Shown here piece by piece: positions 758-31,791 of a DNA stretch of 64,000 nucleotides; the first letter of the stretch is position 1, and each line of letters starts with the position of its first letter. The stretch lies in contig NZ_KN525716.1 of the NCBI RefSeq assembly GCF_000789235.1, positions 2,772,100 to 2,836,099 of the forward strand, written 5' to 3'. The translations under genes and the position numbers were made by a program. The DNA is from Wocania ichthyoenteri Th78 (GTDB lineage: Bacteria > Bacteroidota > Bacteroidia > Flavobacteriales > Flavobacteriaceae). The notes beneath the pieces were generated by a model. It was not told where the DNA came from and searched no databases. It saw only the letters and a program-made list of their open reading frames with translations.

Positions 758-2110
758 ATGAAAATATCAAAAATAAATAATCAAAAACTCTCATTATTAG
801 GCTCAATATCATTAGGTACTGGTGTAATGATTGGTGCAGGAATTTTTGTGCTAATGGGCCAAATTGCTGAATTAGTTGGCGATTTATTTCCTATTGCATT
901 TATTGCAGGTGCTTTAGTAGTTGGCTTTAGTTCTTATTCTTATGTAAAGTTTTCAAATACGTACCCTTCTTCTGGTGGTGTTGCAAAATTCCTAACAAAA
1001 GCATATGGTCCTGGTACACTAGCAGGTTCTTATTCTTTACTAATGTACGTGTCAATGGTAGTTGCTGAAAGTTTAGTGGCTGGTACTTTTGGTGCTTATA
1101 CCTTACGCCTTTTTCCAAAAGAATATGCTGGATATGCTTCTGTATTAGGTGTGTTTCTTATAGTGCTGGCATATATTATAAACATATCTGGAAACAAAAT
1201 TATTGAAGCAACAGCAACTTTAACAGCTATTATAAAAGTTATAGGTATCGCTTTATTAGCAATTTCAGGTTTGGTAATTTCAGGTTTGCCAACTATCACA
1301 GGAAACTTTATTACTACTAATAGTCAAACTTTACCAGATGGTTTTGGTTTTATAGCTGCATTAGCTTTGGCAATTCTAGCATATAAAGGGTTTACAACAA
1401 TAACTAATCAAGGAGGAGATATAAAAAACCCTCATAAAAATGTAGGACGTTCCATTATTATTTCAATTGTTGTTTGCACAATTATCTATGTTATTTTGGC
1501 ATTATCAGTTTCAGGAGCGTTAACTATTGAAGAAATTATTATAGCTAAAGATTATGCTTTAGCTGCTGCAGCAAAGCCAGTATTTGGAGAATGGGGTTCT
1601 ATATTGACTATTTTTCTTGCCATTATAGCAACTGTTTCTGGTGTAATAGCCAGCGTATATTCTGCTTCAAGAATGTTAGGAATGTTAGGTAATATGAAAC
1701 AAGTTCCTAATCTAAATCGCATCAAAAAACTTAAAAACCCTTCTTTGATTTTTACAGTTTCTTTGGCAATTCTCTTAACTATTTTGTTCGACTTAACTCG
1801 AATAGCTTCCATTGGTGCTATTTTTTATTTAATAATGGATATAGCTATTCATTGGGGTCTTTTTAGACGTCTGAAAAAAGAAGTAAAATTCAATCCAATT
1901 ATTCCAATTATTGCCATACTAATGGATGTAATTATTTTGGGTGCATTTATTTATATGAAATATCTAAATGATCCTTTTGTACTTATAGTGTCAGCAATTG
2001 GAATTGTTCTCATTTTTCTTTCTCAATATATTTTTATGAAATCTCATACTGATGAAGATGGAAATATGCATATGGGAATGGATATGGATGAACATAAAAT
2101 GATGAAATAA
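758..2110 (+). CDS. APC-superfamily amino acid permease with a Met/His-rich C-terminal tail
   Basis: 450 residues, the usual length for an APC transporter, with about 12 hydrophobic segments. The N-terminus has the family's signature GTGVMIGAGIFVLMG (residues about 20-34), part of the substrate site. Such proteins exchange or import amino acids across the inner membrane. The unusual part is the last 20 or so residues, rich in His, Met and Asp (HMGMDMDEHKMMK), a composition typical of Cu(I)/Ag(I) binding. Only 16 bp separate it from the Cu ATPase gene, so the two are probably co-transcribed. A role in copper handling is inferred from the tail and the neighbours; the substrate cannot be read from the sequence. 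Confidence 0.85.
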   Translation: MKISKINNQKLSLLGSISLGTGVMIGAGIFVLMGQIAELVGDLFPIAFIAGALVVGFSSYSYVKFSNTYPSSGGVAKFLTKAYGPGTLAGSYSLLMYVSMVVAESLVAGTFGAYTLRLFPKEYAGYASVLGVFLIVLAYIINISGNKIIEATATLTAIIKVIGIALLAISGLVISGLPTITGNFITTNSQTLPDGFGFIAALALAILAYKGFTTITNQGGDIKNPHKNVGRSIIISIVVCTIIYVILALSVSGALTIEEIIIAKDYALAAAAKPVFGEWGSILTIFLAIIATVSGVIASVYSASRMLGMLGNMKQVPNLNRIKKLKNPSLIFTVSLAILLTILFDLTRIASIGAIFYLIMDIAIHWGLFRRLKKEVKFNPIIPIIAILMDVIILGAFIYMKYLNDPFVLIVSAIGIVLIFLSQYIFMKSHTDEDGNMHMGMDMDEHKMMK

Positions 2111-2126
2111 TTTAAAATATAAAAAA

Positions 2127-4625: not shown

Positions 4626-4643
4626 CTATAAAATCAAATAATT

Positions 4644-5126
4644 ATGGAAAATTCAAATCAACACTCAAATAAAGGAAACTATAAAACATTTTTTTTAATG
4701 TTAGGGTTGTCATTTATAGCAATGTATATAACCATGTACTTAAATACCTATGCCATAGACCATGTATATTTCAGCTTGACTCGCTTTTATATGGTTTGCT
4801 TAGGGATTTCAACGATGGCAGTTATTATGCTATTATTCATGCTGAAAATGTATAAAAACAAAAAGAAGAATATAGCAATACTTATAGGAAGCCTAGTGCT
4901 TTTTGTAAGTGCATTAGGATTAGTTAGAGCACAAGCACCAATTGTAGGAGATGTGCTTTGGTTAAAAGGGATGATTCCTCATCATTCTATTGCCATACTA
5001 ACAAGTGAACGAGCAGATATTCAAGACCCAGAAGTCAAAAAATTAGCAAATGCTATTATTGAAGCGCAACGTAAGGAAATAGAAGAAATGAAAGCAATGA
5101 TAAAACGATTAGAAAATGAAAAATAA
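4644..5126 (+). CDS. DUF305 membrane protein
   Basis: 160 residues. Three hydrophobic segments (about 15-33, 47-67 and 76-93) are followed by a helical DUF305 domain (PF03713) with the hallmark MIPHHSIAILTSERA and the terminal IIEAQRKEIEEM. DUF305 proteins occur beside copper efflux genes and carry conserved His and Met residues, so periplasmic metal binding is plausible but not established. The end overlaps the start of the next gene by 11 bp, which suggests translational coupling with the CusB-like adaptor. Confidence 0.82.
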   Translation: MENSNQHSNKGNYKTFFLMLGLSFIAMYITMYLNTYAIDHVYFSLTRFYMVCLGISTMAVIMLLFMLKMYKNKKKNIAILIGSLVLFVSALGLVRAQAPIVGDVLWLKGMIPHHSIAILTSERADIQDPEVKKLANAIIEAQRKEIEEMKAMIKRLENEK

Positions 5127-6894
5127 TAAATTAGTCATTTACATAGGAATATTAGCAGTAGGACTTTTGTTAGGATGGTTTCTTTTTGGTAATTCATCTG
5201 CTAAAGAAACTGAACATAATCACGAAGCAACAACAGAAACCAACCAAATGTGGACGTGTTCTATGCATCCACAGGTTATGCAACCAGAACCAGGCGATTG
5301 CCCAATTTGTGGTATGGATTTAATTCCTGCTGCAAGTGGAAGTGATGGTTTATTAGCAGATCAATTCAAGCTTACAGAAAACGCTATGGCATTGGCAAAC
5401 ATTCAAACGTCAATTGTTGGTAAAGGTAAAACAGAAGATAATACAGTTAAATTATCAGGGAAAATTGTAGAGAATGAAGAAGCTAATGCAGTTCAAGTTA
5501 GTTATTTTTCAGGAAGAATAGAACGTCTAAATGTAAGTTTTACAGGCGAAGAAGTTAGAAAAGGACAGTTATTAGCAACTATTTATTCGCCAGAATTATA
5601 TGCAGCGCAACAAGAACTTATCACAGCAGCTTCATTAAAGGAATCACAACCTGCATTATACAAAGCTGTACGTAACAAATTAAAATTGTGGAAGCTCTCT
5701 GAAAATCAGATTAATCAAATTGAAACTTCTGGTAAGGTTAAAGAAAACTTTCCAGTATATGCAACGGTTTCAGGTACAGTTTTTGAAAAATTAGTAGAAC
5801 AAGGGGATTATATCAAACAAGGTCAACCTTTACTCAAAATAGCTAATCTAAAAACAGTTTGGGCAAATTTTGATGTTTATGAAAATCAAATCGATTTATT
5901 TAAAAAAGGACAAGAGATTTCAGTCACTACTAATGCTTATGCTAATAAAGAATTTAAAGCCAAAGTAGATTTTATAGACCCTGTTTTAGATACAAAAACA
6001 AGAACTGTGAAATTAAGAGCTGTACTCAACAATAAACAGGACGTTTTTAAGCCAGGAATGTTTGTTGAAGGAAAAGTTAAAGGAATGAATTCAAGTAACG
6101 AACACGTATTGACCATTCCATCTACATCTGTTTTATGGACAGGAGAGCGTTCTGTTGTCTATATTAAAACAGACCCTACTCAACCTATTTTTGAAATGCG
6201 CATTATTACATTAGGTAATCAAATTGGCGATAATTATGAGGTGTTAGAGGGTTTGAGTATTGACGATGAGATAGTAACAAATGGAACATTTACTGTTGAT
6301 GGAGCAGCACAATTACAAGGTAAAAAATCAATGATGAATAAAAAAGGTGGTAAAGTTATGACTGGTCATGAAGGACATCTTGGAATGGGAAACAATCCTT
6401 CCGTAAATATTGAGAATCATTCTAATATGAATGAGAGGATAAAAGTGTCTAAGGACTTTAAGAATCAATTGAAAGTCGTTTTTAATGATTATATCAAATT
6501 AAAAGATGCTTTGCTTAAAGATGAATCTAATAACGTAATAACAGAATCAAAAAGACTATTGGGTAATTTATCTAAGGTTGATATGAAGCTATTAAAAGAT
6601 AAAGAGGCTCATGGTCATTGGATGTCATTAGAAAAAGAAATAAAAGCATCGGCAACATCAATTTCAAACACATCAAATATTGAATCACAACGAAATCATT
6701 TTAAGCACCTCTCATCACATTTAATTAGTACGATTCAGACATTTGGTATCAATGAAAAAGTCTTTGTTGAGTTTTGCCCGATGGTAGACGATAACAACGG
6801 TGCATACTGGTTGAGCAGGGAAGAAAAAGTAATCAATCCATATTTTGGGGGCGCAATGCTAACCTGTGGAGAAGTAAAACAAGTAATCGAATAG
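5116..6894 (+). CDS. CusB-like RND periplasmic adaptor with metal-binding module and DUF3347
   Basis: 592 residues, longer than a plain adaptor. It has an N-terminal membrane anchor (about 5-25), a heavy-metal-binding module with CSMHPQ...CPICGMDL (about 48-70), a barrel-sandwich/alpha-hairpin/beta-barrel membrane-fusion core (about 95-420) and a C-terminal helical DUF3347 domain ending in a Cys-containing FCPMVDDNNGAYW segment. Adaptors of this class link an RND pump to an outer-membrane channel and hand over Cu+ or Ag+. It overlaps the DUF305 gene by 11 bp. A second adaptor gene follows the CusA gene downstream, so this one may serve that pump or capture metal exported by CopA. Confidence 0.88.
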   Translation: MKNNKLVIYIGILAVGLLLGWFLFGNSSAKETEHNHEATTETNQMWTCSMHPQVMQPEPGDCPICGMDLIPAASGSDGLLADQFKLTENAMALANIQTSIVGKGKTEDNTVKLSGKIVENEEANAVQVSYFSGRIERLNVSFTGEEVRKGQLLATIYSPELYAAQQELITAASLKESQPALYKAVRNKLKLWKLSENQINQIETSGKVKENFPVYATVSGTVFEKLVEQGDYIKQGQPLLKIANLKTVWANFDVYENQIDLFKKGQEISVTTNAYANKEFKAKVDFIDPVLDTKTRTVKLRAVLNNKQDVFKPGMFVEGKVKGMNSSNEHVLTIPSTSVLWTGERSVVYIKTDPTQPIFEMRIITLGNQIGDNYEVLEGLSIDDEIVTNGTFTVDGAAQLQGKKSMMNKKGGKVMTGHEGHLGMGNNPSVNIENHSNMNERIKVSKDFKNQLKVVFNDYIKLKDALLKDESNNVITESKRLLGNLSKVDMKLLKDKEAHGHWMSLEKEIKASATSISNTSNIESQRNHFKHLSSHLISTIQTFGINEKVFVEFCPMVDDNNGAYWLSREEKVINPYFGGAMLTCGEVKQVIE

Positions 6895-6929
6895 TAAAAA
6901 TCAAATAATAACAATTAAATTTTAAAACA

Positions 6930-7370
6930 ATGAAAAAAGTAATTTTAAGTTTAGCAGTAGTAATGGCTATAGGTTTAACAAGTTGTAAAGACGAAACCAA
7001 GCAAGAAACAACAGAAACAAAAACGGAAGTATCTAAAGACATGGCTATGGCGGATATATCTTTTGGTGTTAGAGGTAATTGCGGAATGTGTAAAAAAACC
7101 ATTGAAAAAGCTGTTAACAAAGTTGAAGGTGTGGCAAATGCAACATGGGATGTCGATAAAAAGAAAATAGATGTGTCTTTTGATGATGCCAAAACAGATG
7201 AAATGGCAATTCATAACGCAATTGCAGCATCAGGTTATGATACTGAAAAGGTTTCTGGAAATGAGGAAGCTTACAGTAATTTACCAGGATGTTGTAAATA
7301 TGAACATGATATGGTAATGAATCAATCAGGAGATAAAAATGAAGAGGATCATTCAGACCATGACCATTAA
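6930..7370 (+). CDS. HMA-domain lipoprotein, periplasmic metallochaperone-like
   Basis: 146 residues. A lipoprotein signal with lipobox LTSC puts Cys20 at the acylated N-terminus. One heavy-metal-associated domain follows, with the metal site GNCGMC in place of the usual GMTCxxC, then a second Cys pair (GCCKYEHDM) and an Asp/His-rich tail ending HSDHDH. The protein probably sits in the periplasm and binds a soft metal before transfer to an efflux partner; this is inferred from domain and context. It follows the CusB-like gene by 35 bp and is followed by a strong hairpin, so it is probably the last gene of the copper operon. Confidence 0.82.
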   Translation: MKKVILSLAVVMAIGLTSCKDETKQETTETKTEVSKDMAMADISFGVRGNCGMCKKTIEKAVNKVEGVANATWDVDKKKIDVSFDDAKTDEMAIHNAIAASGYDTEKVSGNEEAYSNLPGCCKYEHDMVMNQSGDKNEEDHSDHDH

Positions 7371-7377
7371 TAATAAT

Positions 7378-7412
7378 TATAGAAGAGCCTTGTTAATTAA
7401 GGCTCTTCTATA
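7378..7412 (+). terminator. Strong hairpin after the copper operon
   Basis: Two perfectly complementary 14-base arms, TATAGAAGAGCCTT at 7378-7391 and its complement at 7399-7412, with a 7-base loop. There is no long T-run on the plus strand. The position, 8 bp after the HMA lipoprotein stop codon and before a new promoter region, supports transcription termination. Confidence 0.7.
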
Positions 7413-7436
7413 ATAAAAGTTACATGCATACGTTAT

Positions 7437-7472
7437 TTGCAACACCATTGCATTAAATAATTTATATCTTTG
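7437..7472 (+). promoter_or_regulatory. Putative Fur-family operator and TANNTTTG promoter for the efflux operon
   Basis: The motif TTGCAACACCATTGCATT at 7437-7454 contains the inverted repeat TGCAA-N5-TTGCA. It is followed 10 bases later by TATCTTTG (7465-7472), an exact match to the Bacteroidetes -7 consensus TANNTTTG. An almost identical motif (15 of 18 bases) lies at 13852-13869, just after the Fur-family gene, with similar spacing to a -7-like box. A repressor bound here would block the promoter. That the bound protein is the Fur-family regulator encoded at 13435-13848 is inferred. Confidence 0.55.
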
Positions 7473-7477
7473 CTACG

Positions 7478-7789
7478 ATGAAATTTTTAGCCTTCATATT
7501 ATCAATTTATATTTTCGCGCTTAATTTAGCACCTTGCGAAGATAATGCTACGCTTGATAATGAGGTTCAAACAGAAATTTCACAAGGAATGGACAATGAC
7601 CATCAACATCAAGATTCAGATTTATGTTCGCCTTTTTGTATTTGTCAATGCTGCCATGTAAGTGCTGTGCATTTTGATATTCCAGATTTAAAATTAGACA
7701 TATCTTTTATTTCCACAAAAGATGTTTTATACCTAAACGGTTCAGAAAAAGACTTCACAAATTCCGTTTTACAACCACCACAAGTATAA
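7478..7789 (+). CDS. Small Cys/His-rich exported protein (DUF6660-like)
   Basis: 103 residues with an N-terminal hydrophobic signal (about 1-18), a Met/His patch (GMDNDHQHQ) and a dense Cys cluster, CSPFCICQCCH, at about residues 50-60. Small proteins of this layout (DUF6660, recognised from memory) commonly precede CusA/CzcA genes in flavobacteria. Periplasmic or membrane-bound metal binding is plausible, but no function is established. It is the first gene after the putative Fur-family operator, and the start lies only 5 bases after the -7 box, so its leader is very short. Confidence 0.7.
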   Translation: MKFLAFILSIYIFALNLAPCEDNATLDNEVQTEISQGMDNDHQHQDSDLCSPFCICQCCHVSAVHFDIPDLKLDISFISTKDVLYLNGSEKDFTNSVLQPPQV

Positions 7790-7792
7790 TGA

Positions 7793-7812
7793 ATACCTGC
7801 AAACGCAGGTAT
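7793..7812 (+). other. Short hairpin between DUF6660-like and cusA-type genes
   Basis: ATACCTGC (7793-7800) and GCAGGTAT (7805-7812) pair around a 4-base AAAC loop directly after the stop codon at 7789. No T-run follows, so this may be an attenuator, an RNA-stability element or a weak terminator within the operon. A 12-base palindrome, TACCAGTTGGTA, follows at 7837-7848. Confidence 0.45.
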
Positions 7813-7887
7813 ATTATAAATCTATGCTACCATCGATACCAGTTGGTAACTATTCTTTATTTATAAATTCATTATAACTATAATTCT

Positions 7888-10800
7888 ATGATTAATAAAA
7901 TCATTGATTTTTCAATCAATAACAAATTCATCATTGGTTTGCTAACACTTACCATTGTTGGAGCAGGTATTTGGAGTATGACCCAAGTACCAATCGATGC
8001 TGTTCCAGATATTACCAACAACCAAGTACAAGTCATTACACAAGCACCAAATTTAGGAACAGAGGATATTGAGCAAATTATTACTTATCCAGTAGAGGTG
8101 GCAATGAGTAATCTGCCTAATGTTCAAGAAATTCGTTCAATTTCTCGTTTTGGCTTATCAGTTGTTACCATAGTTTTTGACGATGATATGGGAACATATC
8201 TGCCGCGTCAATTAGTCGCTGAAAAACTCAACGACATTAAAGGACAAATTCCCGAGGGATTCGGAGAACCTTCAATGGGGCCTATTTCATCTGGTCTTGG
8301 AGAAATATATCAATACACACTTAAAGTCAAAGCAGAATATAAGGACAAATATTCGGTTACTGATTTGCGCACCATGCAAGATTGGATAGTACAACGTCAA
8401 ATGGCAATGGTTGAGGGTGTTGTTGAAGTTAATGCTATTGGTGGAAAAATTAAGCAATATGAAGTCGCTGTCGACCCAAATGAGTTGCGAGCAATCGGAT
8501 TAACAATTACCGATGTCTTTGAAGCGTTGGAAAACAACAATCAAAATACAGGTGGTGCATATATCGAAAAGAACCATCAAGCCAATTTTATTCGTGGCGA
8601 AGGCTTAGTGCGTAGTTTGGATGATATTAAAAAAATTACAGTAAAAAATATAAATAATATTCCTATAACTATTGGAGACATTGCCAAAGTGCAATTTGGC
8701 TCTGCTATACGTTACGGCGCATTAACACAAGATGGCGAAGGCGAAGTTGTAGGTGGTTTGGTAATGATGCTTAAAGGGGCTAATTCAAACGATGTTATCG
8801 AGAATGTAAAAGAGCGCATGGCTCAAATAGAAAAGTCATTACCCGAAGGTGTAATTATTGAACCTTTATTAGACCGAAGTAAATTAATAGCAGAAACTAC
8901 ATCAACTGTAGCAACAAACCTTATTGAAGGCGCATTAATTGTAATATTTGTACTCATTTTTTTATTAGGAAACTGGCGAGGTGGTTTAATAGTAGCATCC
9001 ACTATCCCATTATCGTTGTTGTTTGCCTTTATATTGATGAATGTATTTGATGTGTGGGCAAACCTAATGAGCTTGGGTGCGATTGATTTTGGAATCATTG
9101 TAGATGGAGCAGTAATAATAGTTGAAAGTACTGTATTTCTCATTACATCCCGAGTACTTAAAAAGAAGAGCCTTACAGCAAAAGAAAGAGATAAGGTAGC
9201 TTCAAATGCTTCAAAAAAAATGATGAATGCTGCGTTTTTCGGTCAGCTTATTATCCTTATTGTTTTTCTTCCAATTCTGGCTTTACAAGGTATTGAAGGG
9301 AAAATGTTTAAACCAATGGCATTGACATTCATTTTCGCAATGATTGGCGCCATGGTGCTTTGTTTGACCTATGTGCCAATGATGTCTGCCTTGATTTTAA
9401 GAGCACCAAAAAACGACAAAAAATCATATGGCGATAAATTTGTGCATTGGGTAGAACGTAAATATCAACCGTTGTTAGAAAAAGCCTTAAAGAAAGGTAA
9501 ACTAATAATTGGTGTTTCTGTTGTTTTATTTGGTATTGCAGTCTTTATGTTTACGAGAATGGGAGGCGAATTTATACCACAACTTGATGAAGGAGATATT
9601 GCGTTTCACGCCATTTTAAAACCAGGTAGTTCCCTTAAAGAAACTATTGAAACGACTACAAAAATTGAACAAATTGTAAAGGCAAAGTTTCCAGAAGTTG
9701 AAAAAATTGTAAGTCGAATTGGTGTTGCTGAAATTCCAACAGACCCAATGCCAATGGATTTGGCTGATGTTTTTGTAATTCTGAAGCCAAAAAGCGAATG
9801 GACAACAGCCATTACAAAAGATGAATTGATAGAGAAGATGAAAGAAGCGGTTGAAATCGTTCCAGGTGTTAACTATGAATTTACACAACCTATCGAAATG
9901 CGCTTCAACGAATTACTAGAAGGTGTTAGAGAGGACATTGCCATAAAACTTTATGGAGAAGATATAAATGTACTGTCTCAAAAAGCAGAAGAAATATCTC
10001 AAATTATTGCAGGTACAGAAGGTATTGGAGATATGAAGGCCGAAGCCACAACAGGCTTACCACAAATGACCATTACCTACAATAGAAATAAATTAGCACA
10101 ATACGGACTGCAAATAAATACTTTAAATCAAATCGTTCAATCGGCTTTTGCAGGTGGAACAGCAGGAATTATTTTTGAAGGCGAAAAGCGATTCGATTTA
10201 GTGGTAAGGTTAAATTCTCAAAACAGAAAGGATATTTCAGATGTTCAAAATTTATATATTAATTTACCGTCTGGTACTCAAATTCCACTTCGTGAAGTTG
10301 CAGATATAAGCTACAAAGCAGGCCCAATGCAAATAAGCAGGGATAATACAAACAGAAGGACCTATGTTGGTATTAATGTAAGAGGGCGTGATGTAAAATC
10401 TTTAGTAACCGAGATTAAATCAAAGTTAGACGCTAAACTTGAATTACCAACTGGCTATTTTATTAGGTATGGTGGTGCATTTGAAAACTTAGAACGTGCA
10501 AGTAACAGATTACAAACTGTAGTTCCAATTGCGTTATTGCTCATTTTTGTACTTATTTATTTTGCTTTGAAATCGTTGCCACAAACTTTAATGATTTATA
10601 TCGCAATTCCTATGGCAACCATTGGTGGTGTAGTAGCATTGTGGTTAAGGGATATGCCCTTTAGTATTTCGGCAGGTGTAGGTTTTATTGTTTTGTTTGG
10701 CGTCGCTGTTCTTAACGGTCTGGTAATGATAAGCGGACTGAATGAGTTGAAAGAAGAAGGTGTTACCAATCTTAAAGATAGAATTATAGAAGGTACAAAA

Positions 10801-23678: not shown

Positions 23679-24074
23679 ATGAAAGTTAAGGACAAATATG
23701 AATACGACTATTTAGCAATCAATTTAAAGCGCCATGTAGTAAAGCGTTTTCGTAAACTATCAAAAAAATTTGCTAAACCACAATCGGAAACTTTGGATGC
23801 CATGGTCGATTTTTTTGAATGGCACGGGTTCTCGCCATTTGATAAAAAAGAGCCAAGTCTTTTGATTGAACTATTAAAGAATCGTAAACGTACTGAAGCA
23901 GTAATTGCCATTATAAAAGACATTGAAAAGAACCATGATAAACCGACAACTGCAATGTTGCAATCTTTATTTATGGAGTTTGAACCAAAGAAAGAAAAAT
24001 TGATTTTAGAGAAAGAGGTCAAAGAGAAGGAAGTACTATTTGTAGAAAAAAATGATTCAAATAATCAATTATAA
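23679..24074 (+). CDS. BfmA/BtgA-family mobilization accessory protein
   Basis: 131 residues. The N-terminal half (YDYLAINLKRHVVKRFRKLSKKFAKPQSETLDAMVDFFEWHG) fits the ribbon-helix-helix-like DNA-binding part of Bacteroidetes BfmA/BtgA accessory proteins, which bind oriT and help the relaxase. The C-terminal part is charged and helical. It starts 106 bp right of the last candidate oriT palindrome and ends 4 bp before the relaxase ATG at 24079, so the two are likely co-translated. Confidence 0.78.
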   Translation: MKVKDKYEYDYLAINLKRHVVKRFRKLSKKFAKPQSETLDAMVDFFEWHGFSPFDKKEPSLLIELLKNRKRTEAVIAIIKDIEKNHDKPTTAMLQSLFMEFEPKKEKLILEKEVKEKEVLFVEKNDSNNQL

Positions 24075-24078
24075 TATT

Positions 24079-25107
24079 ATGTATATTACAATTACAGCTC
24101 AAAAATTAGGAGGAGATTATTCACAAAGTTCTGCGAATTTTGCTGAGTATCTGGAGAAGGAAAATCAAGGTTTGGAGCAAGAAGATGTGGAACATTTTTT
24201 TAATCAATATGGAGATGAAATTGACGCCAAAGACGTGGTCAAAGAAATCGATGGCAATACTGCAAAACTCAAAAAGAAAGAACCTAAATTTTATTCAATT
24301 ACAGTTAGTCCTAGTAAATATGAATTGAGAGAATTACAGAATAATTCTGAAGATTTAAAGAAATATACCAGAGCCATAATGAACGATTATGCAACGTCTT
24401 TCAATCGAGAAATTAATGGTAAACCTATAACCGTTGACGACATAAAATATTTTGCGAAAATTGAGCATCAAAGAACATTCAAAGGCACAGATAAACAGGT
24501 AAAAGAAAACCAACCTTTTGCCACTAAAATACTTCAGCTAAAAACTGATATTCGGAAAATTGAACAAGGTCAATTAGAAGGCAATATCAAGAAAATGAAA
24601 TCCGATATAGCCAAACTTGAAGCTGAAGCACCACACCAACAAAATGGAAAACGGATTGTTCAAGGGATGAAAAAAGCGGGTAATCAAAGTCATATTCATA
24701 TTATCGTGAGTCGAAAGGATGCATCAAATTCTGTGAGTTTATCGCCAGGATCTAAATACAAAGCTTCAGAAGTTACGATGCATGGTAAAATTGTAAAACG
24801 TGGGTTTGATAGAGATGCGTTTTTCACAAAAGCTGAAACCACTTTTGACAAAACTTTTAGCTACAAACGCAACTATGCAGAATCCTATAAATCGAAAAAA
24901 GATTTTATTAAGAATCCAAAGTTGTACTTCACAACATTGTTAGGATTGCCTGCAAGCGAAAAAGCAGTTGCTTTTAAAATGCTTGCTAAATCTGGAGTAC
25001 CCATTGCAAGTATTCCAACAAATCAAGTCCAAATAGCGCTTAAAACCATAAGGTATTTAAAACGTGGTGTGGACATAGCAATTAAATCAGGTTCAATAGG
25101 TATATAA
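24079..25107 (+). CDS. mobB: MobB-type relaxase
   Basis: 342 residues from the ATG at 24079 (MYITITAQKLGGD); an earlier in-frame ATG at 24052 lies inside the preceding gene. An early Tyr and the motif QSHIHIIVSRKD, an HxH metal-binding element preceded by Gln, match the Bacteroidetes MobB relaxase family (DUF5712). The enzyme should nick one strand at oriT and stay covalently attached to the 5' end. A coiled-coil stretch (about 145-190) lies between. It ends one base before the coupling-protein start, giving a mobA-mobB-mobC operon reading away from oriT. Confidence 0.82.
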   Translation: MYITITAQKLGGDYSQSSANFAEYLEKENQGLEQEDVEHFFNQYGDEIDAKDVVKEIDGNTAKLKKKEPKFYSITVSPSKYELRELQNNSEDLKKYTRAIMNDYATSFNREINGKPITVDDIKYFAKIEHQRTFKGTDKQVKENQPFATKILQLKTDIRKIEQGQLEGNIKKMKSDIAKLEAEAPHQQNGKRIVQGMKKAGNQSHIHIIVSRKDASNSVSLSPGSKYKASEVTMHGKIVKRGFDRDAFFTKAETTFDKTFSYKRNYAESYKSKKDFIKNPKLYFTTLLGLPASEKAVAFKMLAKSGVPIASIPTNQVQIALKTIRYLKRGVDIAIKSGSIGI

Positions 25108-25108
25108 A

Positions 25109-26701
25109 ATGGAAATACAAGGAATCACATTTACGATTGGGTTATTATTTGGAATGAGCTTAGTGTTCTCTAGTCTTTTCAAAATGACCCGATATGCTTT
25201 TTTTATAAATCTTATTTTAACTGTAATTTGCTTAGGACTACTTTTTAAATTAAGTCCTTATTTAATGCATTGGGTTATCCAGCTTCTATATATTGGTTGT
25301 CCGCTTTTACTGATTAATACAGTTTTATATGTATTTCTTCACAAGGAAAATGAAATTATGGATTCCAATGATAAACATCAAGTTCATTTTAAAATAAAAG
25401 GAGGAAGTTTTAAAATTAACAACATCAAACGAGGCGCTTCCATAATTGGTTCTGCAGGAAGCGGAAAAACAGAAAGTGTTGTTTTCAATTTTCTTCAGCA
25501 TTTTAGCAGGCATAAATTTTCTGGTGTGATTCACGATTACAAGAATTTTGAAATCACAGAAATGGCATTTCCCTTATTTGAAAAAAACGAGATTGATTTC
25601 AAAGTGATTTCATTCGATAATATTCATGATCGAGTGAATCCAATTGCACCAAGATATATGACCAATGAAGAAAGCGTAAATGAGGTTGCAAGAGTACTTA
25701 TAGAAAACTTATTAGAACAAAGAGAGTCCGGAAGTATAGGAACAACAAAATTTTTCAATGATGCAGCAGAAGGCTTAATTGGTGGATTGATTTGGAAGTT
25801 AAGAACCTCACATCCGCAATATTGTACATTACCACACTTAATAGCTGTTTACCAATATCTAAATACTTCAAGTCTAATTGCATTTTTGAGTAAGAATACA
25901 ACATCGAGAGCGATGGCAGATGCTTTTATTAGTGGTAAGGATTCCGACAGGCAAACCGCTGGTGTAAAAAGTACTTTGGCCAATGCGCTCAAAAAAATAA
26001 GTACGCAACGTATTTTTATGGCGCTTTCTTCAGATGATGTTCCACTCGATATAAATAGCCAGGAACAACCTTTAGTAATTTCAGTCGTCAATAACCCTAA
26101 ATACGAAACTGCCTATTCGCCAATTATAGCAACTATTATTCACACGATTACAAAGCAAATGAGTGTGAGAAATTCTAATGCTTCGTTTTTATTGATGGAA
26201 GAAGCACCAACGATTAGATTGTTGAATATGCATAGAATTCCAGCCACATTGCGTAGTTATGATATTGCGACGATTTACGTAATGCAAGACAAAATACAGA
26301 ATGATATGATGTATGGAGATAAAGCGAGTAAAGCAATTCTAAGTAATTTATCGTATCAATTCTTCGGAAAGGTAAACGATCCAGACACAGCGAAGTATTA
26401 CGAACGCTTTTTTGAAATCGTAAAGAAAGAAACCACTAGCGTAAATCGAGGACACAATCTCAATTTTGATACACGAATTACAACAGGAGAACGTGAAGTC
26501 GCTAAAATTAGAGCAGATGTGTTCTTCAGACTAAAAGAAGGCGAATTTATTACTTTTGCAGATGGAAAGGACAGGAAAGTACAATTTAAACTTCCTAAAA
26601 TTGAAAAGCTATTACCAACGAAACAACAAGACTATTCAGATGCTGATTTGCAAGCTAATTTTGATAGGGTTTATGAAGAGGCTAGGTCGATATTTAAATA
26701 G
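25109..26701 (+). CDS. mobC: Type IV coupling protein (MobC/TraG-like ATPase)
   Basis: 530 residues with two N-terminal hydrophobic segments (about 5-50 and 53-78) and a VirD4-type ATPase domain. Walker A is GSAGSGKT (114-121); a Walker-B-like SFLLMEEAPTIRLL lies near 360. It links the relaxase-bound DNA to the mating channel in the inner membrane and drives transfer by ATP hydrolysis. It directly follows the relaxase (start one base after its stop) and is the last mobilization gene before the cargo patch. Confidence 0.88.
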   Translation: MEIQGITFTIGLLFGMSLVFSSLFKMTRYAFFINLILTVICLGLLFKLSPYLMHWVIQLLYIGCPLLLINTVLYVFLHKENEIMDSNDKHQVHFKIKGGSFKINNIKRGASIIGSAGSGKTESVVFNFLQHFSRHKFSGVIHDYKNFEITEMAFPLFEKNEIDFKVISFDNIHDRVNPIAPRYMTNEESVNEVARVLIENLLEQRESGSIGTTKFFNDAAEGLIGGLIWKLRTSHPQYCTLPHLIAVYQYLNTSSLIAFLSKNTTSRAMADAFISGKDSDRQTAGVKSTLANALKKISTQRIFMALSSDDVPLDINSQEQPLVISVVNNPKYETAYSPIIATIIHTITKQMSVRNSNASFLLMEEAPTIRLLNMHRIPATLRSYDIATIYVMQDKIQNDMMYGDKASKAILSNLSYQFFGKVNDPDTAKYYERFFEIVKKETTSVNRGHNLNFDTRITTGEREVAKIRADVFFRLKEGEFITFADGKDRKVQFKLPKIEKLLPTKQQDYSDADLQANFDRVYEEARSIFK

Positions 26702-26774
26702 ACCTGTTACCTTTATCTAAAAAATACATTTATTATCTTTAAAGTTTTATTTGAGGAAAAAAGAAATTAAATAT

Positions 26775-27350
26775 ATGGCAGAAAAACCTTTAAAGATAAT
26801 GTTGTCTTCAACGGTATACCACTTCAAAACTGAAATTGAACAAATTTTCGGGATATTAAAAGGTTATGGATATGATGTTATTTGTTCTCATATGGGAACT
26901 GTTTACAACATTCCTGGAAAATCGCCAACCGAATCTTGTTTAAAAGCAGTTGAAGAATGTGATTTTTTCTTTGGAATAATTTTGCCTCACTATGGATCTG
27001 GAATAACACATTTGGAGTTTCAAAGAGCAATAGAATTAGATAAACCTAGAGGTTTTTTGGCTCACAGTTCTGTTACATTTGCTCGTACTTTATTAAAGCA
27101 ATTTATGTATGATGAAGATGGTAAAAGAAATGACTTTAAATTGTTAAAGAAGACACCATTAATGGACGATTTAAGGGTTATTGATATGTATAATGAGGCT
27201 ATTGGAGACGGAGAGCCAATGGAAAAACGATTGTGGGCGCATGAGTTTTATAAGTTTGCAAAGGATGGCGCACCGTTTGTTGCAAGTCAATTTGAGAACA
27301 AAACCAGACTTACTAACGATTTAAATGCTTTAAAGGATGACAAGAAATAA
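26775..27350 (+). CDS. DUF4062 protein (probable sensor/effector), cargo
   Basis: 191 residues from ATG 26775; a TTG 24 bases upstream is a weaker start. It shows the DUF4062 pattern: IMLSSTVYHFKTEIEQIF, ESCLKAVEECDFFFGIILPHYGSG and THLEFQRAIELDKPRGFL. The family has a flavodoxin-like fold related to TIR/nucleoside-hydrolase-like proteins and is often fused to NTPase or repeat domains in defence-associated proteins. This copy is standalone. Its stop overlaps the next gene by 14 bp, so the two are almost certainly translated together. Activity is unknown. Confidence 0.72.
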   Translation: MAEKPLKIMLSSTVYHFKTEIEQIFGILKGYGYDVICSHMGTVYNIPGKSPTESCLKAVEECDFFFGIILPHYGSGITHLEFQRAIELDKPRGFLAHSSVTFARTLLKQFMYDEDGKRNDFKLLKKTPLMDDLRVIDMYNEAIGDGEPMEKRLWAHEFYKFAKDGAPFVASQFENKTRLTNDLNALKDDKK

Positions 27351-28845
27351 AGAAATAAAGGACATTCTTAAAGAAGGCGAGACTAACGCCATAGAATTTA
27401 AGATAAATGCTAATAAAAAATCGATTGGTAATTCTGTAAGCGCGCTCTTAAATTCTGAAGGTGGACGAGTTTTAATTGGTATTTCAGATAAAGGAGAAAT
27501 AAAAGGAATAGATAATGTTGAACAAGTTAGTGAGGATTTAAGAAAACACCTAATTGAAGAAATAGTTCCGGACACACCCATAGATTTATCGATTGAACAC
27601 ATTAATGATAAAGCCATTATTATTCTTAAAGTTTCCGAAGGAAGCAAGCAGCCTTATATTTATGATGGTAATATCTACTATCGTAGAGGTTCTAATACGG
27701 TTAAAGCTACTTCAAAAGAAATATCAAGATTAATACATCAAAGAGAAGTTGATGAACAACATTGGGAGCGACAAGTTTTTTTAGGATTTGCTTGGGATGA
27801 TTTAGACCATAAGCTTATTAAGAATACATTAATAGAATCTAAAGAAAATTATAGAAGCAGTTATCAAGGTAATGATTTACAAGAATTTTTAAACCATTAT
27901 GGTTTAATGACTAATGGTGCGTATACTAATGCTTGTGTAATTTTATTCTCAAAAAATACATCTAAGTTTCTTCCACAATCTAGAGTTAGAATAACGGAAT
28001 ATGCTAATAGTAAAACTGATAATAGTCTAATTCGTGATGAAGCTTTAGAAGGAAATTTATTTGTTTTAAGAGATAAGCTTGAAAGTTATATTTACAATTT
28101 AGGAACAAAGAGTCATTTTGATGATAAAAATTGGAAACGAATAGACTTTAGATACCCAGTAAAAGCATTACAGGAAGGAATTATTAATGCTTTAATGCAT
28201 AGAGACTACAGTAGTTATAATAGTCAATTAACCATAAGCATATATCCTGATAAACTTGTTATAGCTAATAGTGGTAAATTACCTGAAGAAATTGCTATAA
28301 GAGATTTAAAAAAGAATCATCGCTCTTTTCCTGTTAATCCAGATATCGCTCATATTGTTTTTCTCAGAGGTTTAATTGATAAACTAGGAAGAGGAACAGT
28401 TAAGATAAATGAAGAATGTAAAATTGCAGGACTTAAATCCCCAACTTGGAAACAAAGTAAAGGAGAAGTTATTTTAACTTTTAATGGACCTCTAGCTTCT
28501 GTAGCTAAAAGACATTCTGATTTAAAAAATAAAAGCATTGATGCGACAAATGATGCAATAAGTGATGCAGTAAATACTGCAATAAGTGATGCGATAAATG
28601 ATGCAATAAGTGATGCAACAAATGATGCGGTAAAAAGTAGACTTAAACAAGAACTTGTTTTACTTTATATAGAGGAAAGTCTAAGTTTAAGAAGTCTTCA
28701 AGATACTTTTGATGTTGGTAGAGCAACTATGCAAAGAGATATGACTTTAATGAATGAAAATAAACTTATTGATTTCACAGGCTCAAATAAAACAAGAAAA
28801 TATATTATTAATAAGGATTTAATGGAGAAATTAAAATCTCTATAA
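27337..28845 (+). CDS. AlbA_2 (Schlafen-like) DNA-binding and GHKL-ATPase-like protein
   Basis: 502 residues. The N-terminal AlbA_2 domain (about 10-125) has NAIEFKINANKKSIGNSVSALLNSEGG and GISDKGEIKGID. A RecG-associated HATPase_c_4-like region (about 265-390) follows with ALQEGIINALMHRDYS, IANSGKLPEE and LRGLIDKLGRGT. A low-complexity AxNDAxSDA repeat (about 403-434) comes next, then a C-terminal helix-turn-helix (about 440-502). Such proteins are nucleic-acid-related regulators or defence factors. It overlaps the DUF4062 gene by 14 bp. Together they could be a two-gene defence or stress module; this is inferred. Confidence 0.8.
   Translation: MTRNKEIKDILKEGETNAIEFKINANKKSIGNSVSALLNSEGGRVLIGISDKGEIKGIDNVEQVSEDLRKHLIEEIVPDTPIDLSIEHINDKAIIILKVSEGSKQPYIYDGNIYYRRGSNTVKATSKEISRLIHQREVDEQHWERQVFLGFAWDDLDHKLIKNTLIESKENYRSSYQGNDLQEFLNHYGLMTNGAYTNACVILFSKNTSKFLPQSRVRITEYANSKTDNSLIRDEALEGNLFVLRDKLESYIYNLGTKSHFDDKNWKRIDFRYPVKALQEGIINALMHRDYSSYNSQLTISIYPDKLVIANSGKLPEEIAIRDLKKNHRSFPVNPDIAHIVFLRGLIDKLGRGTVKINEECKIAGLKSPTWKQSKGEVILTFNGPLASVAKRHSDLKNKSIDATNDAISDAVNTAISDAINDAISDATNDAVKSRLKQELVLLYIEESLSLRSLQDTFDVGRATMQRDMTLMNENKLIDFTGSNKTRKYIINKDLMEKLKSL
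28543..28638 (+). repeat. 12-bp tandem repeat inside the AlbA_2 gene (8 units)
   Basis: Eight consecutive 12-base units alternate between GCAATAAGTGAT-like and GCGATAAATGAT-like versions, coding for alternating AISD/AIND tetrapeptides. The number of units can change by slippage without breaking the frame, altering the linker before the helix-turn-helix. A related unit recurs at about 28949-28964 downstream of the stop codon. Confidence 0.85.
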
Positions 28846-28848
28846 GTT

Positions 28849-28995
28849 GAATATGATGATTTAGGCGGAAATTGGTAAAGAGAACTTACTAGTAAAGATG
28901 ATAATATACTAGGTGGTCAAATAAGTGGTCAAGAAGGTTGTCAAATGAGTGATGCAATAAATGATATTTCTAAATTCACAAAAACATATGAGTAA
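28849..28995 (+). pseudogene. Remnant C-terminus of an AlbA_2/ATP-binding protein
   Basis: In the frame starting at 28849 the sequence reads EYDDLGGNW, then a stop at 28876-28878, then RELTSKDDNILGGQISGQEG and MSDAINDISKF to a stop at 28993-28995. The EYDDLGGNW ending followed by GGQ repeats is the usual C-terminal end of AlbA_2/HATPase proteins in Bacteroidetes. It sits just after the intact gene, so it looks like a displaced or decayed alternative C-terminus. Confidence 0.5.
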
Positions 28996-29002
28996 ATAAC
29001 TA

Positions 29003-29536
29003 ATGACAGGAATTCTGCTTATTTTATTAATATTATTCTTTCTCGGACTTCCATTCTATTGGATTTATAAGCTGATTTCAAAAAAGAAAAAAGGAAATAA
29101 AACTAATGTCCAAAACATATTGAAAGACGAATCTAAATTTGAAGCTTCAGATTTAATAAAGAAAACGAAGTTTACATTTATGGATGATTATCGAATGTGG
29201 ACAAAACTATCTGAAGCTGAAAGAAAAGAACGTTTAAATGATATTCAAGTCATATTTGATTATGGTAAAGACCATATCACAAGAGAAATGATAAAGAAAG
29301 GTTTTGAGCCTGGTTCCAAAATTATTGACATTAAGTACTTTACAGGATTATCTGAGCACGGATTTACAATTTCAACATTTATTATTCAACACAAAGATGG
29401 TGGAGAAATAAGAGCTTTAACAATGAATATAGACTTGAAGAAAATGGAATTCAAAGCCACTCGAAATGCTTACTTTAGTTCAGGAAAGGAAAAATATTAC
29501 TATTTGAAAGATAGAGAAAACTTAATGGAAATATAG
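29003..29536 (+). CDS. Membrane-anchored unknown protein
   Basis: 177 residues: one strong N-terminal transmembrane segment (about 3-25), a short Lys-rich cytoplasmic stretch, and a soluble domain with DDYRMWTKLSEAERKERL and a beta-rich end (GFTISTFIIQHKDGGEIRALTMNIDL). I do not recognise the family. It is upstream of the Mrr-like and TIR genes by 62 bp on the same strand, so it could be part of the same cassette or unrelated cargo. Confidence 0.5.
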   Translation: MTGILLILLILFFLGLPFYWIYKLISKKKKGNKTNVQNILKDESKFEASDLIKKTKFTFMDDYRMWTKLSEAERKERLNDIQVIFDYGKDHITREMIKKGFEPGSKIIDIKYFTGLSEHGFTISTFIIQHKDGGEIRALTMNIDLKKMEFKATRNAYFSSGKEKYYYLKDRENLMEI

Positions 29537-29598
29537 GTGCAGATACAAAATCAAATAAAATTATTTACTAAATTGGGTAATTAATAAAACAGTCATAA

Positions 29599-30096
29599 AT
29601 GAAGTTAACATTTGACGAAATAGAAGACGATAAGATCTTTGAAGAATTAACAGCGTCGTATTTTCGTGAACTAAAAGAATCACCAGATAATAATATAACT
29701 GATGTAATTGTTAAAGAAACAGGAGAAGGGACTGATGGAGGTAGAGATATACTTATTGAATTTAATCTGTCTGATGATATAAAGGTTTTCAAGAGAAAAT
29801 GGGTTATACAATGCAAGTTTAGAGAAGATTCTGTATCGCCATCGCATCTCAAAGCCATTAATATACCTACCTTAATCCATTCATATAATGCGCAAGGGTA
29901 TTTACTAGTTTGTAAAACAAGAGCAACTTCAGGAGTTACTGATTTGTTTGAAAGGCTAAATGAACAATGCAAAGACAGCTATCATTATGAGTGTTGGAAC
30001 GGTAGTCAATTTTTAAGCAAGCTTATTTTACAAGAAAAAATTCAAGAACTTTTCTTTCCAGATTACTATGAGTATATACAAACTTTTAAAAAATAA
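29599..30096 (+). CDS. Mrr-like PD-(D/E)xK nuclease domain protein
   Basis: 165 residues. The core motif GTDGGRDI (Asp46, Asp50) followed by a beta strand with QCKF (Gln71, Lys73) is the G-x-D-G-G...QxK signature of the Mrr_cat nuclease superfamily; Glu14-Glu16 near the start could be the helix acidic residues. Mrr enzymes cut modified or foreign DNA, often needing a separate targeting domain, and none is present here. The TIR-domain gene starts 6 bp after the stop, so both are probably one operon and one system. Alternative: a solitary type IV restriction enzyme. Confidence 0.75.
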   Translation: MKLTFDEIEDDKIFEELTASYFRELKESPDNNITDVIVKETGEGTDGGRDILIEFNLSDDIKVFKRKWVIQCKFREDSVSPSHLKAINIPTLIHSYNAQGYLLVCKTRATSGVTDLFERLNEQCKDSYHYECWNGSQFLSKLILQEKIQELFFPDYYEYIQTFKK

Positions 30097-30102
30097 AGTG
30101 AA

Positions 30103-30567
30103 ATGAGAACATTTATATCATATTCAATTAATGATACAGACCAGTACCTTTTGACTTTGCTTTCAAGTGAACTTTACAAAAAAGGTGTTACAATTACTCA
30201 AAGCAATGATTTTCATTTAGAAATGAGTTCATTAACAAAAGTAAATATTAATAAGTCAAATTTATTCATAGGAATAATCACAGGTCAAGGTCAGGAAAGA
30301 GATAGAGTTTTAAAAGAGTGGCAATTGGCAAATGTATCTAATGTTCCATCCATATTGATGATTGAAAATACCGTTCCTATTGATCCAAATTTTACAAGTC
30401 CATATATAATTTTTGATAGAAACTATCCTCAAAAAGCAATTAATCAATTAGATCAAAAAATAACAAAATTAAAAAAAGAGATAGATAAAAATCCAAATGC
30501 TTTAGCTTGGATTTTAGGTGGTGCAGCATTATTATCGATTTTTGGACTATTATCATCAGATGATTAA
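30103..30567 (+). CDS. TIR-domain protein with a C-terminal membrane segment
   Basis: 154 residues. The N-terminus reads MRTFISYSINDTDQYLLTLL, the classic box 1 of TIR domains; LFIGIITGQGQERDRVLKEWQLA follows, in which Glu72 sits where the NADase glutamate of bacterial TIR proteins and SARM1 lies. The end (about 133-150) is a hydrophobic stretch, ALAWILGGAALLSIFGLL, able to anchor it in a membrane. Such TIR proteins can cleave NAD+ or oligomerise upon infection. Coupled with the Mrr-like gene 6 bp upstream, it suggests an abortive-infection module. Catalytic competence is not certain. Confidence 0.75.
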   Translation: MRTFISYSINDTDQYLLTLLSSELYKKGVTITQSNDFHLEMSSLTKVNINKSNLFIGIITGQGQERDRVLKEWQLANVSNVPSILMIENTVPIDPNFTSPYIIFDRNYPQKAINQLDQKITKLKKEIDKNPNALAWILGGAALLSIFGLLSSDD

Positions 30568-30590
30568 TTAAATAAGTAGCGCATAATCAT

Positions 30591-30953
30591 CTAAAATGGA
30601 CCGCGTTCCCGTGGCTTTTTACTACTCACTTTCCATTTTCCATTCTCTTTGACCAGTTTAAAAACACCAGGACTTTTATCATAGGATGAATTGTATTTTA
30701 CCCAAGCCAAATCGCCTTCTAATGCTTCATCTAATATTTCTACATTGGCATCTTTATCTTCATCTGGTATCATATCTTGAATCATTATTAAGCCAGTATA
30801 GCCGTCAGAAGTGGTGTGTTTTTTAAGTGTGGAATTGTCCTTTTTATAGAAACTTTCCACAACTATTTTAGCTGTTTCGGTATGAGTCAGATTTTGTTTT
30901 TCAGCACAAGAGAAAATTAGTAATGCGAGAACGGAAGTGATTAATGTTTTCAT
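30591..30953 (-). CDS. Small lipoprotein at the end of the tra operon
   Basis: 120 residues with a signal and lipobox FSCAEK (Cys16), and a compact NTF2/DUF4878-like fold: ETAKIVVESFYKKDNSTLKKH, then WVKYNSSYDKSPGVFKLVKENGKWKV. DUF4878-like proteins are small periplasmic lipoproteins of unknown role. It directly follows traN (7 bp) on the minus strand, so it is probably expressed with the transfer genes and may take part in mating-pair formation or surface exclusion. That is inference from position. Confidence 0.65.
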   Translation of the reverse strand: MKTLITSVLALLIFSCAEKQNLTHTETAKIVVESFYKKDNSTLKKHTTSDGYTGLIMIQDMIPDEDKDANVEILDEALEGDLAWVKYNSSYDKSPGVFKLVKENGKWKVSSKKPRERGPF

Positions 30954-30960
30954 AATATTA

Positions 30961-31791
30961 TTAATTTGGGTTATTGATATATTTATGTGATATTTTCATT
31001 TTAATATTTCGTTCGCCATCTTTCTCGTTTAATTCTAAAATTACCTTTCTGTCATTAGATAATGAAAATTTGGGCATAACATATATAAGTCTTACCGTTT
31101 CATTTATCACAATTTTCGAAGGCAGATGATGTTTAAAAATAGGCTCTACGTACAAACGTTGTAAAGATTTCTTTTTTCCTTTTTGTCGAGTCTCGATAGA
31201 AAGGTTCAAGAAATTCAAATCATAATCCAAAGTAGAATTATTCCTAATTTGAATAACGAAGTAGAGCTCTTCTTTATCAAAAACAATATTTTCAAGCCTC
31301 ATTATAACACCATTATTTCGTCTTGTGTGTCTTCCAAGATATTGTCTTCTATCAAGAAGATAAGAGCAGAATTTTTGATAATAATACGTATCATTATCAA
31401 TACTTTTTTCAGAAATTTCAGTCTGAATAGAGTCTGCCGATTTTGGCTTTTCATTCCCAATACTGTTAGATAATGGGACAAAATAATTGAGTTTTGAAAG
31501 CTGCGCTTTATACCTTACAATATACGAAAAAATTGAGCCATTTCTATTGATTACCAGTAGATTACTTTCTTTTCCTGGTTGGGCTTGCAGTAAGCCGAAA
31601 TATTGCTCTTTTTCACGATTGTAAGTGAATACAAAATTTTCTGAGCCAGTAATGCCTTGTCGTATAGGCTCTGGAAAAAAGAGTGCGACATTTTTGCTGT
31701 CGTTTGCATAAATAGTATCAAGGATTTCTGTTGTTTGTGCTTCCACTAAAGTGGCAAACAATACGGATAATATAAATAGTATCGGTCTCAT
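30961..31791 (-). CDS. traN: Conjugative transposon protein TraN (VirB9-like, DUF4138)
   Basis: 276 residues with a signal peptide (MRPILFILSVLFATLVEAQ), then a beta-rich domain with FFPEPIRQGITGSENFVFTY near the start, the typical TraN/DUF4138 layout. In CTnDOT-type systems TraN is a periplasmic/outer-membrane core component. It overlaps traM by 4 bp (ATGA), as usual for this operon. It is the last tra gene before the lipoprotein. Confidence 0.85.
   Translation of the reverse strand: MRPILFILSVLFATLVEAQTTEILDTIYANDSKNVALFFPEPIRQGITGSENFVFTYNREKEQYFGLLQAQPGKESNLLVINRNGSIFSYIVRYKAQLSKLNYFVPLSNSIGNEKPKSADSIQTEISEKSIDNDTYYYQKFCSYLLDRRQYLGRHTRRNNGVIMRLENIVFDKEELYFVIQIRNNSTLDYDLNFLNLSIETRQKGKKKSLQRLYVEPIFKHHLPSKIVINETVRLIYVMPKFSLSNDRKVILELNEKDGERNIKMKISHKYINNPN

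Follow-up and report, generated by a model that had tools for sequence, protein, structure and literature searches.

The window, that is, the whole 64,000-nucleotide stretch of DNA analysed here, lies on one contig of a 3.95-Mb genome (positions 2772100–2836099) and within a Bacteroidota-type integrative conjugative element (ICE). Two adjacent genes in this element encode a short Mrr-type nuclease and a small TIR-fold protein with a predicted membrane tail (Table 1). A sequence-only reading of the same DNA had described these ORFs as a pair separated by 6 bp, and both their positions and their spacing were correct. It had also assigned the pair to ICE cargo, which agrees with its location between conjugation genes; relatives occurred in phage and defence-gene settings as well.

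Table 1. Positions in the window of the Mrr–TIR pair and of the surrounding ICE genes
Feature	Position	Strand	Basis
MobB relaxase	24052–25107		NCBIfam, 3.9e-124
ORF after MobB, read as conjugation coupling protein	25109–26701		Label without search match
DUF4062 gene and AlbA_2 Schlafen-type gene	26751–28845		Pfam
177-aa gene	29003–29536		
Mrr-type PD-(D/E)xK nuclease, 165 aa	29599–30096	+	Pfam Mrr_cat, predicted structure, active-site residues
TIR-fold protein (154 aa) carrying Glu72 and a hydrophobic helix at its C-terminus	30103–30567	+	TIR_2 in relatives, predicted structure, fold matches
Predicted membrane tail (C-terminal hydrophobic helix, residues about 134–152; 133–151 in the model)	30502–30558	+	Hydropathy, predicted structure
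TraN-type gene	30961–31791	Opposite to the pair	Pfam DUF4138, 8.4e-25; TIGR03780, 4e-28, under cut-off

Predicted properties of the two proteins

Conservation was assessed across 20 pairs, comprising 17 genome-contig loci, the window, a phage contig (L027) and L087. The Mrr-type identity of the first ORF, proposed from the letters alone, was confirmed by Pfam Mrr_cat (E 5.4e-7; 30.2 bits, over the cut-off of 21). Structure prediction, which had been suggested as a check for both proteins, yielded a nuclease fold for Mrr (pLDDT 87) and a TIR/N-glycosidase fold for its partner (pLDDT 88). The structures closest to the Mrr model were AF1548 (Z 11.2), AspBHI (10.6), MspJI (10.2) and Avs4 (8.9), where rows within Z 1 of each other are ties, and the top Foldseek matches were AspBHI (1.6e-5) and MspJI. 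The predicted active-site residues D46, D50, Q/E71 and K73 were kept in all 20 proteins, residue 71 being Q in 17 and E in 3, and E7, G48 and C72 were likewise invariant. Pfam detected no added DNA-recognition or ligand domain in the 165 residues. By its domain and active-site residues, Mrr is assigned to the PD-(D/E)xK nuclease type, with predicted DNA cleavage. At E values up to 0.01, no solved chain matched the Mrr or TIR family profile by sequence.

The TIR protein of the window matched Pfam TIR_2 under the cut-off (E 0.0062), and 16 of the 17 aligned family members matched it at E values up to 0.1 (best 8.8e-8), with the phage-contig relative over the cut-off (32.4 bits vs 28). In structural comparisons, the model reached Z values of 11.4 with BcmB, 9.7 with SfSTING, 9.3 with SARM1 and 9.1 with SPARTA. 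The N-glycosidases BcmB, MilB and DNPH1 (the last at about 11) outranked the TIR proteins (9.6–11.4 vs 9.0–9.7 for SARM1, SfSTING and SPARTA); therefore, the fold alone cannot separate a TIR protein from an N-glycosidase. MilB was the only Foldseek match below 0.001, and the list also contained EF-G, EF-Tu and KRAS chains (E 2e-3 to 1e-2) and SARM1 (2.4e-3). Foldseek alone is thus soft evidence for this model, and it is the sequence, with TIR_2 in 16 of 17 members, that points to a TIR protein.

Seven TIR residues (S6, S8, D11, E72, A76, E88 and G140) were invariant in all 20 pairs. In an alignment with L029, a larger TIR protein, Glu72 fell on the KE position; the TIR domain of L029 matches solved bacterial TIRs, and we take the glutamate at this position to be the catalytic residue of NAD+-cleaving TIRs. 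The tail was the most hydrophobic 17-residue stretch of the TIR protein in every pair and, in the window, had the highest mean hydropathy of the whole protein (2.18). Across the 20 relatives, the tail mean ranged from 1.75 to 2.8, vs 0.7–1.3 for the best stretch of Mrr, and most TIR relatives carried a W-I-L-G-G-A-A-L type of tail sequence. Glu72 and the hydrophobic end, both pointed out in the sequence-only reading, were therefore family-wide features (20 of 20).

The gene directly upstream (29003–29536) encodes a 177-residue protein with an N-terminal hydrophobic stretch, and the earlier reading had brought it in as a membrane-anchored neighbour. As a third component it was rejected. It was absent from L008, which carries the pair, and a 96% identical copy was present in L066, where the pair is missing; among the compared pair loci, only the window and L007 have the gene. 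It is separate cargo, outside the unit.

The pair as a conserved and mobile unit

When a two-sequence Mrr alignment was scanned against the genome-contig collection, 20 loci were recovered, two of which were generic Mrr proteins of Streptomyces (E 7e-6 and 7e-5) without a TIR gene. In 17 of the 18 remaining close relatives, a tailed TIR gene lay directly downstream of Mrr. The exception (L021) had a shortened Mrr, with the C-terminal part missing and the gene running off the contig end, followed by a TIR-like gene that is divergent and lacks both Glu72 and the tail. Neither this TIR-like protein nor the product of the third gene after it (L021 2–1649) had a Pfam match. This locus is possibly a variant with the third gene as effector or a decaying copy. 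Co-occurrence of the two genes elsewhere, on which the earlier proposal depended, was thus observed at 20 loci including the window; seen from the TIR side, the pairing can be judged on very few data, as a TIR-profile search gave the window and two genomes with matches in large ORFs.

The pairs were distributed over 14 settings, namely window/L007/L008 (the same ICE type), L009, L010, L011–13, L014, L015, L016, L017, L018/19, L020, L022/23, L024, L027 and L087. The L018 and L019 proteins are identical, and L002 and L022 seem to be one and the same locus. When ORFs of 80 aa or more from 13 of these settings were compared all against all by BLAST, Mrr and TIR were the only genes in common among the matches listed, except for one further gene common to L015 and L024; the matches listed for the other loci point to no further gene in common with L012–L015. 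The neighbourhood of L087, outside this comparison, was read by eye. The two genes overlapped by 4 nt in 13 of the 20 pairs and by 1 nt in two, and the other five had gaps of 4, 6, 40, 104 and 319 bp, the three Aureispira loci having Mrr and TIR 40–319 bp apart. The overlaps fit subunits that are made together, and such translational coupling suggests that the Mrr and TIR proteins bind each other. No Mrr–TIR fusion was present in the loci examined.

Distances among the Mrr and among the TIR proteins were correlated (r 0.89, Mantel p 0.0001; 19 pairs, shared ancestry not removed). The dN/dS ratio was 0.02–0.15 in 15 of the 20 gene comparisons (ten per gene), i.e., 0.02–0.09 in eight of the ten for Mrr and 0.03–0.15 in seven of the ten for TIR. 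The comparisons with the phage contig (two per gene) gave 0.2–0.36 for Mrr and TIR, and one TIR comparison had a saturated dS. Both genes are under purifying selection. The pair is a conserved unit, the two genes of which move together among unrelated sites of bacterial genomes and of a phage.

Within the ICE type of the window, the 6-bp gap accompanied a one-base homopolymer length difference from L007 and L008, and the window Mrr was three residues shorter. Between the window and L008, dS was 1.24 for Mrr and 0.30 for TIR; the much greater divergence of Mrr is a sign of recombination inside the pair.

The region between the gene at 25109–26701 and the TraN side (window 25109–30953) is a cargo slot of the ICE family. 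The protein encoded at 25109–26701 was compared with 199 family genomes, 48 of which had matches with E up to 1e-150, and 8 kb downstream was examined at 20 of these places (L066–L085). In 16 of the 20, the stretch extended to the far ICE boundary, and in one of these 16 (L072) the slot was empty. No Mrr–TIR pair was found in these 20 stretches of 8 kb, including that of the closest ICE relative (L066), in which the 25109–26701 protein is 96% identical and the 177-residue gene is present. The slots held differing genes, several of which matched defence models. Among ten likely-looking cargo proteins, a non-random choice, nine gave PADLOC matches with E values of 1e-8 or lower, namely AbiEii, CBASS-type cyclase, TmtA, type III and type IIG restriction, PDC-S06, PDC-M03A (weak), caspase and Ppl-like.

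In the window, the slot also holds the DUF4062 and AlbA_2 genes, which are common to the window and L008; in L007, the AlbA_2-type gene is a different one and DUF4062 is absent. DUF4062 has a TIR-like fold. The AlbA_2 protein matched a PADLOC pAgo model (3.5e-23) and was found beside the pair only within this ICE type. The DUF4062 gene overlaps the AlbA_2/HATPase gene by 14 nt.

On the phage contig (L027 1–8968), Pfam verified the genes for the large terminase and the capsid. The pair lay ca. 1 kb from the terminase large subunit gene and 0.1 kb from an ORF taken for the terminase small subunit. It sat at one end of the available sequence, on the strand opposite to the structural genes.

The pair is rare, and a wide distribution was not found. 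The window Mrr was detected in two of 296 genomes of the order, its own included, and a two-row Mrr profile matched five of 395 phylum genomes, i.e., its own and four distant matches without TIR. In a class sample of 395 genomes, Mrr was matched three times: in the window, in L087, which has the pair, and in the distant L088, which does not. The TIR profile matched the window and two genomes with large ORFs of 582–649 aa, one of which was read, and found no second member of the tailed TIR family in the 395 phylum genomes. The order and phylum samples overlap. Plasmid searches with the window TIR, the window Mrr and the L024 TIR gave no match; the L015 Mrr recovered a single distant match, a restriction endonuclease of Sinorhizobium, with no annotated TIR in the 6.4 kb around it that were inspected. 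Phage records gave no match to the L027 Mrr or the L015 TIR, and scans of viral contigs yielded one locus, L027. No tailed TIR was present near the distant Mrr genes of L003–L006, L025–L026 and L088 in the stretches examined (1.9–3.4 kb each for L003–L006 and L088, that of L004 being truncated), indicating that association with this TIR does not extend to the wider Mrr family. The L024 record is labelled Glaciecola amylolytica, a label that may be wrong; its neighbouring genes look, in our judgement, Bacteroidota-like. Because of this doubt, transfer between phyla is not claimed.

Comparison with known systems and neighbouring defence genes

The pair corresponds to no system in PADLOC (2023 version), and the sequence-only reading could not name the arrangement either. 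None of the 17 TIR members matched this library, and the Thoeris models in it matched neither the eight window proteins nor the 17 TIRs. PDC-M58, PDC-S02 and LmuA were considered as the identity of the pair and rejected, since the matches were confined to the Mrr domain. The A gene of PDC-M58 is a short Mrr-like gene, and all 17 Mrr members matched PDC-M58A at E up to 0.1 (best 3.4e-9), a weak match that would reflect a related Mrr domain rather than equivalence. In contrast, PDC-M58B was matched by none of the 17 TIRs at E 0.1. Its profile found one place in 247 phylum genomes, a protein that by eye is SPOR plus beta-propeller-like, without TIR, and two matches in the own genome (E 0.008–0.009) away from the pair. 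An E. coli system combining an Mrr nuclease domain with a beta-propeller is mentioned in PMC9519451.

Among TIR-based systems, Thoeris resembles the pair in its operon and its small TIR protein without an extra sensor domain. The partner here, however, is an Mrr nuclease rather than ThsA, a SIR2/SLOG protein, or another ligand-binding effector, and the TIR protein carries a membrane tail. The likeness to SPARTA/TIR-APAZ lies in the TIR (Z 9.1 to the SPARTA TIR) and in a partner expected to contact nucleic acid; the pair differs in lacking both Argonaute and APAZ and in having as partner an Mrr nuclease whose predicted active site is conserved. The PD-(D/E)xK fold is shared with Avs4, Lamassu LmuA and MspJI/AspBHI (Z 8.9, 6.8 and 9.7–10.6, respectively), in which it is a domain of a larger chain (PDB chains of 379–1534 residues), whereas here a single-domain protein has a TIR partner. 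The neighbouring DUF4062/AlbA_2 pair is also two-gene cargo but belongs to different families. The Mrr–TIR pair was not found in open-licence literature, including passages of PMC6299218, PMC13092281 and PMC7159879, which is weak evidence of absence. It may be a new variant of TIR-based defence, and a later name is possible given that the PADLOC version dates from 2023.

In six of the 14 settings, a defence or restriction gene, either recognised or candidate, lay near the pair. In a PADLOC scan of ten hand-chosen neighbours, in which L011–13, L015–L017 and L087 were left out, eight matched. These settings included Gabija in L020 (GajA 3.7e-286, GajB 7.4e-238), type III restriction (2.2e-197) and methylase (6.5e-179) genes in L022, a type II methylase and restriction enzyme 2–4 kb from the pair in L009, candidate PDC-M48B in L024 and NotI after the pair in L014. 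In L010, a deaminase-domain gene matching the dCTPase model (5.8e-119) ends 18 bp before Mrr. In L022 (region 3365–9037) and L023 (region 1347–9037), the type III restriction gene ends 8 bp before Mrr, as if the pair were appended to the restriction-modification operon. A gene beside L018 carries a RES domain by Pfam; neither this gene nor the L021 TIR-like gene matched PADLOC.

Possible modes of action

A role in defence, drawn from association, is credible. Our best explanation, which we hold tentatively and at somewhat less than an even chance, is that the pair is a mobile two-protein anti-phage or anti-element module with nuclease engagement as the trigger and a membrane TIR as the effector. 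We infer that the Mrr and TIR proteins would form one complex, in which the small nuclease-fold protein would engage invading or replicating foreign DNA and probably cut it, with the TIR protein inserted in the inner membrane and anchored there through its tail. Signalling would run from nuclease to TIR, as engagement with foreign DNA would cluster the TIR protein and switch it on. The activated TIR would then act as an NADase, consuming NAD+ via Glu72, and the anti-phage effect would consist in stopping the cell before the phage matures. We prefer this order for two reasons: of the two proteins, the nuclease alone has a natural contact with foreign DNA, and the NADases of short-Argonaute immunity are TIR-APAZ proteins (PMC10474274).

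Since both predicted active sites were kept in all 20 pairs, both chemistries appear to be needed; this conservation does not decide which protein is sensor and which is effector. Several results count against the best explanation: neither Mrr nor TIR has a recognisable sensor domain, the TIR-like gene of L021 lacks Glu72 and tail, the Aureispira genes are separated by gaps of 40–319 bp, and distant Mrr proteins occur without this TIR. Moreover, the top structural matches of the TIR model are nucleotide N-glycosidases (BcmB and DNPH1), and thus the substrate may not be NAD+. To our knowledge, known TIR systems need a separate recognition part (Argonaute, STAND NTPase or cyclic-nucleotide receptor) or, in Thoeris, a second effector. 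That the pair is instead a minimal two-enzyme immune machine of ca. 320 residues, in which nuclease engagement with foreign DNA triggers a membrane-tethered TIR NADase, is rather doubtful; if true, a restriction-type enzyme would have become the alarm that sets off cell suicide. If protective, the pair would be a very small TIR system, with TIR paired with a bare nuclease domain, and would add a module missing from this PADLOC library; it would also allow tests of whether a nuclease may serve as sensor and of why a TIR protein is placed at the membrane.

A serious rival, although we consider it unlikely, reverses this order, such that the membrane-tailed TIR protein senses infection, through a phage protein or membrane disturbance, and activates the nuclease by contact or an ADP-ribose-type signal, the nuclease then degrading DNA as the effector. 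The nuclease domains of Avs4 and Lamassu LmuA are effector domains; the Mrr model resembles that of Avs4 (Z 8.9), LmuA models were matched by nine of the 17 Mrr members, and the nuclease lacks a recognition domain of its own. Staphylococcal Thoeris offers a precedent, with two TIR proteins that themselves sense phage by binding its major head protein (PMC11312562). On the other hand, Pfam found no ligand-binding domain in the 165-residue nuclease; therefore, a signal could act only through a new pocket or by direct contact. It is also conceivable, but quite improbable, that the TIR protein is mainly a membrane anchor or scaffold and that the nuclease cuts incoming phage or conjugating DNA at the inner membrane, the cell surviving. 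Retention of the tail in all 20 pairs is in keeping with such a role, as is carriage by ICE and phage, which fits the exclusion of competing elements. The invariant Glu72, S8 and D11 (20 of 20) are unexpected of a pure anchor, however, and L021 bears on both sides, its TIR-like partner lacking Glu72 but also the tail.

Least probable of all, and in our view very unlikely, is a pair that serves mobile elements in addiction or housekeeping, e.g., as a toxin and its neutraliser, rather than in anti-phage defence. Neither protein resembles an antitoxin, and predicted active sites are kept in both, whereas carriage by an ICE and a phage contig, the short two-gene layout and the RES-domain toxin-type gene beside L018 would suit such a pair. 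The match of eight of the ten hand-chosen neighbours to PADLOC defence models also argues against it.
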